A DNA stretch of 64,000 nt, taken from contig CANRBC010000005.1 of NCBI GenBank assembly GCA_947628755.1, forward strand, positions 53,009-117,008, in the 5' to 3' direction. Positions within the stretch are counted from its first letter, which is position 1. Each line of letters begins with the position of its first letter. The notes beneath the pieces are model-generated. The model was not told the DNA's origin. It did not search any database and saw only the letters and a program-made list of their open reading frames with translations. Below are positions 61,594 to 64,000 of this stretch, one piece after another. The DNA is from an uncultured Clostridia bacterium (lineage in GTDB: Bacteria > Bacillota > Clostridia > Lachnospirales > CAG-274). A program made the translations under genes and the position numbers.

Positions 61594-62137
61594 AGGAAAA
61601 TTTGTGTTTTATATTAAAAAACTCTATGTCGTTTTTTCGGCTGCGGCAATGGTACTGTTGTGCTTTGTACCGATATGCAACAACATATATACCCCTTCGG
61701 TATATCCTTTGTCCCTTTGGGGACTGTTCGGAAAATATTTGCTGCTTATACCCTTTATAATAGTTCTTGATACCTTTCTCGACGGCTTTTTGTTTATGCG
61801 CTTTAAATTCAATTTCGTATTCGGCGAGTTCTGGTGTCTTGTACTTTTCTATCTATACTGCCGTCTTGCCGTATATGGCTATGGCTTAAGCAATATGCAC
61901 CCTACCTTCTATATAGCCTTTATACCGGGCGCAGTTGTTTCTCTTCTTGCCCTGAGTATAAGAGAATGCGACAACTCCGGAATGTCATGGATAAATAAAT
62001 ATGACCTTATATGGCTTATATTCTTTGGTATAGCGGGAATATTGATAATTTTAAGATGTATTATCATGAAAAATGTTCCCTCTTCGCTTTACATCTTTGA
62101 CGACGCTATATCGAAAGCGGCAATGTACACACAATAA
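61583..62137 (+). CDS. Hypothetical polytopic membrane protein
   Basis: 184 aa, several TM segments, overlaps the 3' end of the kinase reading frame. Confidence 0.6.
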   Translation: MQNRGKFVFYIKKLYVVFSAAAMVLLCFVPICNNIYTPSVYPLSLWGLFGKYLLLIPFIIVLDTFLDGFLFMRFKFNFVFGEFWCLVLFYLYCRLAVYGYGLSNMHPTFYIAFIPGAVVSLLALSIRECDNSGMSWINKYDLIWLIFFGIAGILIILRCIIMKNVPSSLYIFDDAISKAAMYTQ

Positions 62138-62233
62138 CAGTAAATACTTGGTAGGGGTATAGATAAACTTAGTAAAACTTAATGATTTGGCTTATTGAAA
62201 GAAACAGAAAAATTATTAAATTTCAAATAAAAA

Positions 62234-62296
62234 AACAGATAAATTGTTTCGATCTTTGAGGCTCCAATTGCCTCAAGAGGAAACATTTATCTGTTT
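62234..62296. terminator. Long hairpin (AAACAGATAAA...TTTATCTGTTT, inner TTGAGGC/GCCTCAA)
   Basis: Near-perfect nested dyad after the membrane-protein gene. Confidence 0.5.
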
Positions 62297-62437
62297 CAAT
62301 GATAGTATAGCATATTCTCTGACAGAAGTCAATCTATGTATTTGCTCTATAATATATTATTTAACTTTTCTTGACTTTTAGCTACTGTTATAATAAAATA
62401 AATATACAGAGGAATACAGCTATACGAGGTTAGGAAT

Positions 62438-63406
62438 ATGGAAACAAACACACCTGTTTCAAGAACAATAGATACGGCATACAGAAATCCCAAGCTCGAC
62501 GAAGCCTGCAAGAAGGTATTGTCATTTAAAATAATACTTGCTCATATTCTGAAGGGCTGTCTTGAGGAATTTAAGGACATAGATGTAAATGACATAGCGG
62601 AAAAATACATTGAAGGAAAGCCTCTTGTATCGGAAGAAGCCGTTCATCAAGACGAAGGAATTGCAATAGACGGTAAAAACACAGAGGACAGCTCCATAGA
62701 CGAAGGTACCGCAAGATATGATATACTTTTTGACGTATGTATTCCCGTATCAAATGAACAAGTAAAGCTTATAATAAACATAGAGGCGCAGAGCCGGATA
62801 AAGTCTTGGCGCAATCTGCTCAGAAGAGCAAGATACTACTGCGCACGTATGCTTTCACATCAGTACGGCAGAGAGTTTGTAAACAGCGAGTATGAAAATA
62901 TCAAAAAGGTAATTTCTATATGGGTGCTTACAAATCCCTATGCAGAAGTCAGAAATACAATAACAAGAGTTCATCTTGCGCAAACAAATCTGGTAGGAAA
63001 TGTTCCAAATCTTAAAGAGCATTACGACACAGACGAGGTTGTTCTTGTCTGCCTCGGCGGAGAAAAGGACGACAACTATTCGGGACTTCTCAAAATGCTT
63101 GATGTACTGTTTTCCGAAAGCGTAAGCATAGATACCAAGAAACAAGTGCTAGAAAGTGAATATGATATAATGATGAGTGAGGAATTACAAACGGAGGTGT
63201 ATGAAATGTGTGATTATAGCTTAGGTGTATATGATAGAGGCGTTGAGAAGGGTATGGCACAAGGTATGGCACAAGGTGCAGAGAACAAGTTACTGGAAAA
63301 TATCAAGAGTGTTATGGAAGGATTAAGTATGCCTTTGGAAAAAGCATTAGAGTTATTGAAAGTGCCAAAATCCGACTATGCCAAGTATGAGGAATTGCTT
63401 AAATAA
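62438..63406 (+). CDS. Rpn-family / PD-(D/E)XK nuclease (transposase-like) protein
   Basis: RYDILFDVCIPVSNEQVKLIINIEAQ (D...ExQ core), C-term EKGMAQGMAQGAENKLLENIKSVMEGLSMPLEKALELL. Confidence 0.88.
   Translation: METNTPVSRTIDTAYRNPKLDEACKKVLSFKIILAHILKGCLEEFKDIDVNDIAEKYIEGKPLVSEEAVHQDEGIAIDGKNTEDSSIDEGTARYDILFDVCIPVSNEQVKLIINIEAQSRIKSWRNLLRRARYYCARMLSHQYGREFVNSEYENIKKVISIWVLTNPYAEVRNTITRVHLAQTNLVGNVPNLKEHYDTDEVVLVCLGGEKDDNYSGLLKMLDVLFSESVSIDTKKQVLESEYDIMMSEELQTEVYEMCDYSLGVYDRGVEKGMAQGMAQGAENKLLENIKSVMEGLSMPLEKALELLKVPKSDYAKYEELLK
63206..63406 (+). CDS. Candidate intragenic C-terminal small protein (in-frame internal start), Rpn-S-like
   Basis: GGAGG at 63193-63197, 8-nt spacer, ATG 63206 in frame with the nuclease gene. 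Confidence 0.5.
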   Translation: MCDYSLGVYDRGVEKGMAQGMAQGAENKLLENIKSVMEGLSMPLEKALELLKVPKSDYAKYEELLK

Positions 63407-63455
63407 AAAGACACCAAAAGGCAGAGCAGCAATGTTCTGCCTTGTTTTATATTTT

Positions 63456-63850
63456 AAAGCGTAAGCATAGATACAAAGAAACAAGTGCTGGAAAGTGAAT
63501 ATGATATAATGATGAGTGAGGAATTGCAAACGGAGGTGTATGAAATGTGTGATTACAGTTTAGGTGTATATGATAGAGGCGTTGAAAAGGGTGCAGAGAA
63601 CAAGTTACTGGAAAATATCAAGAGCGTTATGGAAGGATTAAGTATGCCTTTGGAAAAAGCATTAGAGTTATTGAAAGTGCCAAAATCCGACTATGCCAAG
63701 TATGAGGAATTGCTTAAATAAAAAGACACCAAAAGGCAGAGCAGCAATGTTCTGCCTTGTTTTATATTTTAAAGCGTAAGCATAGATACAAAGAAACAAG
63801 TGCCGAAAGATGAATATAATACAAAGATGAGTGATGAATTGCTCAATAAT
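63456..63850 (+). repeat. Tandem duplication of the 3' end of the nuclease gene (second copy 63456-63770, truncated third 63771-~63850)
   Basis: AAAGCGTAAGCATAGATAC recurs at 63117, 63456 and 63771; copy 2 lacks 24 nt (GMAQGMAQ). Confidence 0.9.
63545..63721 (+). CDS. Stand-alone duplicate of the nuclease C-terminal domain (58 aa from SD-preceded ATG; ORF track start 63485)
   Basis: GGAGG 63532-63536 + ATG 63545; translated sequence nearly identical to the nuclease tail. Confidence 0.6.
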   Translation: MCDYSLGVYDRGVEKGAENKLLENIKSVMEGLSMPLEKALELLKVPKSDYAKYEELLK

Positions 63851-64000
63851 AATCCACCTATGAAACGGGTGGTTTTTCATTTTTTGGTATAGTCCTGTGT
63901 GATTTATAGTTATAAAGTTATTTATGGCTCTTTAAATTTTTCTGTGTATTCAACAACTTCTGACAGATAATGCAAAAATCACATTTTCTGCGGCATTCGA

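Follow-up and report, generated by a model that had tools for sequence, protein, structure and literature searches.

A putative Rpn-type nuclease gene with a conserved internal translation start, and a free-standing copy of its tail, in an uncultured Clostridia bacterium

The window analysed here, a 64,000-nucleotide stretch of one contig from an uncultured Clostridia bacterium, carries close to its end a predicted nuclease gene, rpnL, that includes a second, in-frame translation start in its 3′-part and is followed by copies of that part. The features of the region are listed below, where energies are those of predicted pairing with the anti-Shine-Dalgarno (anti-SD) sequence.

62426 to 62430, + strand: SD sequence of the full-length start, GAGGT, 7-nt spacer, −7.1 kcal/mol
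62438 to 63406, + strand: rpnL, predicted PD-(D/E)XK (PDDEXK_2/Rpn-type) nuclease gene, 322 aa, ATG start, from PF12784 and conserved residues
63163 to 63171, + strand: perfect extended −10 sequence TGATATAAT upstream of the internal start, tentatively a possible internal promoter
63193 to 63199, + strand: internal SD GGAGGTG, −13.3 kcal/mol, conserved in the family
63206 to 63406, + strand: rpnS, from the in-frame internal ATG (63206 to 63208), 66-aa C-terminal product, predicted antitoxin
63251 to 63274, + strand: two 12-nt repeats GGTATGGCACAA forming a 4-aa repeat block, which varies by multiples of 4 aa in relatives
63418 to 63443, + strand: terminator-like hairpin 3′ of rpnL, then GTTTTATATT
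63456 to 63770, + strand: tandem copy 2, with the upstream region, SD, rpnS and terminator but minus 24 nt (two repeats)
63502 to 63510, + strand: TGATATAAT in copy 2, possible rpnS2 promoter
63532 to 63538, + strand: SD of rpnS2, GGAGGTG, −13.3 kcal/mol
63545 to 63721, + strand: rpnS2, intact stand-alone 58-aa copy of the tail, ATG at 63545, without MAQG repeats
63733 to 63758, + strand: terminator-like hairpin 3′ of rpnS2
63771 to 63842, + strand: third copy, truncated, with only the region upstream of the SD before it diverges, and no antitoxin ORF

The 322 aa product of rpnL matches PF12784 with E = 3.4e-5 and 24.1 bits, which is under the curated cut-off of 27.4, and the curated Rpn model TIGR01784 with E = 0.05, also under the cut-off. 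Matches among 11 relatives number 9 for PF12784 and 6 for TIGR01784 (best E value for the latter 2.1e-8). In 69 divergent homologues D95 and Q118 are invariant and E116 is present in at least 90%, and these three are likely to be the catalytic residues of the predicted nuclease. The predicted structure is of moderate quality (pLDDT 68.9); a fold search with it returned PD-(D/E)XK matches that were sub-significant (top hit MspJI, E = 0.02), and a sequence search of the PDB with the gene product found nothing relevant. On its sequence, the gene is a member of the broad Rpn/PD-(D/E)XK group, as a preliminary description of this DNA had proposed, the Rpn assignment being based on profile matches that are sub-threshold or belong to relatives and on the architecture of the locus rather than on direct sequence homology with the Rpn proteins of E. 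coli.

The same description had placed GGAGG (63193–63197) 8 nt (63198–63205) ahead of an in-frame ATG within this gene, giving a 66 aa product (MCDYSLGVYDRGVEKGMAQ...), and every one of these elements was recovered. Predicted anti-SD pairing makes the internal SD the stronger of the two (−13.3 vs −7.1 kcal/mol for the full-length start). At the 345 in-frame internal ATGs of the 64-kb window, a background drawn from long open frames on both strands with spurious frames included, SD matches of 7 nt occur at 2 and of at least 6 nt at 5. Because 7-nt matches are found at window sites of this kind, the SD and ATG of a single gene are not decisive.

Homologues were gathered from the same genus up to phylum level, and 111 full-length genes aligned at window Met257 were reduced to 70 clusters with <70% identity in the nuclease domain. 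An SD was scored where a match of at least 6 nt lay 4–12 nt from the start, and a synonymous null was generated by resampling codons from each gene's own usage in 200 trials. An SD is present at the site in 54 of the 70 clusters, against a null mean of 12.1 and maximum of 21, a null that counts clusters as separate despite their shared ancestry and for which comparison column by column is the safeguard. Elsewhere in these genes an SD precedes only 6 of 564 in-frame ATGs, and the mean anti-SD energy is −10.7 at the site, −5.8 for the null and −3.0 for those ATGs. In the column scan 0.78 of rows have an SD at Met257, while the 305 other columns average 0.015 with a maximum of 0.09; nothing stands out except Met257 and the columns right beside it, which have the SD in common.

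An SD and ATG could also arise by chance from conserved amino acids, with no internal product made, as the peptide motif E-V-x-x-M-C-[ND] is conserved and its Glu-Val pair is always encoded as GA[AG]GT. This explanation is already contradicted by the 54 clusters observed where synonymous resampling yields 12, and by the codon for Glu253, which lies inside the SD: all 48 rows have GAG there, against 16–56% GAG in the 26 other Glu columns. The SD is also kept while the residues encoded there vary (EEV, KEV, KEA, RRI and KDV), and the only residues that replace Met at the start are Val (GTG) and Leu (TTG), the sole exception, L049, being poorly aligned. ATG, GTG and TTG are all initiation codons. 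An SD due to chance or to the amino acids was accordingly rejected as highly improbable. Common descent explains the conservation poorly because synonymous sites should be saturated at the distances found in this family. The simplest reading is that the internal start is real and held by strong purifying selection across the family, and that translation from it is functional. At the level of sequence, the proposal of a gene within a gene has strong support from conservation of both SD and start codon, over 70 divergent clusters, well beyond what the amino acids need.

Close relatives of the genome are uncultured Clostridia assembled from 'Lapin' (rabbit) samples, presumably gut. Plasmid and phage collections contributed one plasmid and three unannotated phage records with no informative names, and two viral scans for further relatives returned no new ones. 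The extended −10 sequence makes an internal promoter at 63163–63171 plausible in the window gene. A family-wide internal promoter was rejected, as −10 and −35 scores are without clear excess over synonymous resampling.

The small protein opens with MCDYSLGVYDRGVEKG, and its MAQG repeats begin after residue 16. Tails in the close clade are 54, 58, 62, 66, 70, 78 or 90 aa long, in every case 54+4k. Helices are predicted in the full-length protein at residues 248–276, 280–296, 300–306 and 311–321, with low confidence at 263–283. Neither the tail nor the orphan copy matches PF14261, and neither has a significant match to any Pfam model. Three loci from the same genus that belong to a different Rpn-like nuclease subfamily (L096, L097 and L098) have a nearly identical C-terminal tail SANTLLANIRSIMQNLGISLEKALEVLNIPTSDYAKYEELLK, with AAGGAGG preceding the internal ATG, and the tail seems to have been shuffled between nuclease subfamilies.

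The preliminary description had missed the tail copies and terminator-like hairpins downstream of rpnL. The duplicated unit extends from approximately 87 nt upstream of the internal start codon through the tail and the hairpin at 63418–63443, and the period from copy 2 to copy 3 is 315 nt. Relative to the parent tail, rpnS2 has 4 synonymous changes and lacks exactly 24 nt, equal to two repeats. A GTG at 63485 was considered as the orphan start and rejected as it is without an SD. The contig ends at window position 64000, and further downstream copies could exist.

A downstream orphan tail was found in about 10 of 106 relatives, a set that includes close duplicates and is limited to loci whose downstream sequence extends for 600 nt or more. 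In six parent/orphan pairs pN/pS is 0–0.38 and the orphan copies appear to remain coding, though gene conversion could contribute to the low values. The repeat numbers of orphan and parent are unequal in some pairs (0/2 in the window, 2/5 and 3/0). A rule that orphans always mismatch the parent was rejected, since tail lengths are equal in several pairs (L011, L164 and L170). The 95% identical orthologue L010 in genome G006 retains the orphan unit only as a decayed remnant, AAAATATAAGCATAAATACAAAAAGTGCTT, downstream of position 1051, which suggests that orphan copies are gained and lost quickly. In Selenomonadales, a gene with a long GMAEG-type repeat tail (L025:177–1493) has immediately behind it an orphan tail, MAVPSFEDVYQEG..., that is almost the same in sequence, and its internal ATG has GGAGGG ahead of it, the same logic in another branch. 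The rpn loci often lie at contig ends, in the window and in many relatives. This is what would be expected if near-identical tails broke short-read assemblies, and it makes the copy numbers underestimates.

Two further genes are present in the same genome. One (contig C6:54646) is full-length, with five repeats and a downstream tail copy that has two; the other is 5′-truncated and has three repeats. The five-repeat paralogue (L005, C6:52649–55957) adjoins a VirD4/TraG-like coupling ATPase and conjugation-type ORFs, and for this reason is probably located on an integrative conjugative element. Three gene copies in one genome, one of them near conjugation genes, together with tandem tail units and the Pfam name of PF12784, 'nuclease family transposase', might indicate a PD-(D/E)XK transposase that left the tandem tails behind as traces of its own movement. 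A repeat search of 61900–64000, however, found no close flanking inverted-repeat pair, and Zhong et al. (PMC10327210) report neither ends nor target-site duplications of rpn genes and judge transposition highly unlikely. Mobility of the gene would also leave the conserved internal start unexplained, and we regard a transposase as very improbable.

The architecture is that of the E. coli RpnL/RpnS systems (rpnA–E and rpnP2) described by Zhong et al. (2023, PMC10327210), where the C-terminal tail of a PD-(D/E)XK protein is also made separately from an RBS and start inside the gene. Dependence of RpnS translation on this RBS and start, its action as an antitoxin and the presence of downstream copies have experimental backing there in E. 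coli. The hallmark of RpnS given in the same text is a set of 4-residue repeats 8–20 residues past the internal start, varying in number between strains, and the window tail agrees in having 4-aa repeats soon after its start. A free tail copy lies downstream in E. coli rpnE-ypaA as in the window, and ypaA has one 4-aa repeat more than the rpnE tail and its own AAGGAG; whereas the window copy lies behind a terminator-like hairpin, the E. coli copy directly follows the stop codon. DUF4351-type (PF14261) RpnS proteins, in which the tail domain forms a separate small gene (PMC10327210), resemble rpnS2 in being free-standing, but the window tail and orphan have no PF14261 match. The same paper includes a Gram-positive rpn gene, from C. 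difficile, for which expression of RpnS in E. coli requires the predicted RBS and internal start, and for which the sections consulted describe neither a downstream orphan nor a toxicity test. The earlier suggestion of the same logic in a Firmicute holds at the sequence level, but it is not new, RpnS of C. difficile having already been shown by Zhong et al.

The window nuclease is of PDDEXK_2 type. A profile of 69 sequences compared by hhalign with the single sequence of E. coli RpnE gave a probability of 2.4%, and in this single-sequence comparison no homology to the RpnE domain was detected. For this reason, transfer of the mechanism from E. coli is a transfer over a large distance. The SD strengths, intact catalytic residues and predicted helical tail fit the E. 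coli mechanism, and the locus is very probably an Rpn-type toxin-antitoxin gene-within-gene composed of an RpnL nuclease and an intragenic RpnS antitoxin. By analogy with Zhong et al. (2023), from which we infer the toxicity of RpnL, neutralisation by RpnS, specificity for repeat number and an antiphage role, RpnL (322 aa) would be a toxic PD-(D/E)XK DNA nuclease. The stronger internal RBS and the ATG at 63206 would supply extra copies of the 66 aa helical tail, RpnS, which would pair with the identical tail of RpnL and keep the nuclease off until phage infection or another stress released RpnL from it. Duplication of a unit of upstream region, SD, tail and terminator has given rise downstream to the free-standing rpnS2. 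Its product may add to the amount of antitoxin or, should the repeats have to match as they do for E. coli RpnC, may differ in specificity.

Internal initiation could also be real and the small protein not an antitoxin but a subunit with a structural or activating role, like Cas11 in relation to Cas10d/Cas8b. Intragenic Cas subunits are a precedent (PMC11899642), and the tests for selection indicate a need for the small product without revealing its function. However, the RpnA, RpnB and RpnP2 pairs tested by Zhong et al. (PMC10327210) behave as toxin and inhibitor, and the free extra copies of S and hypervariable 4-aa repeats match an antitoxin. A subunit role is accordingly considered improbable, and an antitoxin preferred.

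Zhong et al. (2023, PMC10327210) had already described the principle, an instance in a Gram-positive bacterium, the repeats and free copies downstream, and a literature search found no later paper on the Clostridial Rpn branch. What is added is nucleotide-level selection on the internal antitoxin start across a whole family, obtained independently of expression data. This result covers genes of the PDDEXK_2-type branch from uncultured gut Clostridia and related bacteria, and carries a system that was known by experiment in E. coli and for a single C. difficile gene over to a distant branch. In addition, the window holds RpnL and a nearly identical orphan antitoxin that are two repeats apart, making repeat specificity testable. 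For RpnC of E. coli, neutralisation requires that the numbers of 4-aa repeats match (PMC10327210), and for this reason mismatched copies would differ in specificity. Free downstream copies with another repeat number might then represent different specificities and not mere spares, a speculative view to which we give a minor but appreciable chance. If it is true, mismatched copies could guard the cell from rpnL alleles brought in by mobile elements, or from its own toxin after repeat slippage, which would permit rapid change in repeat number.
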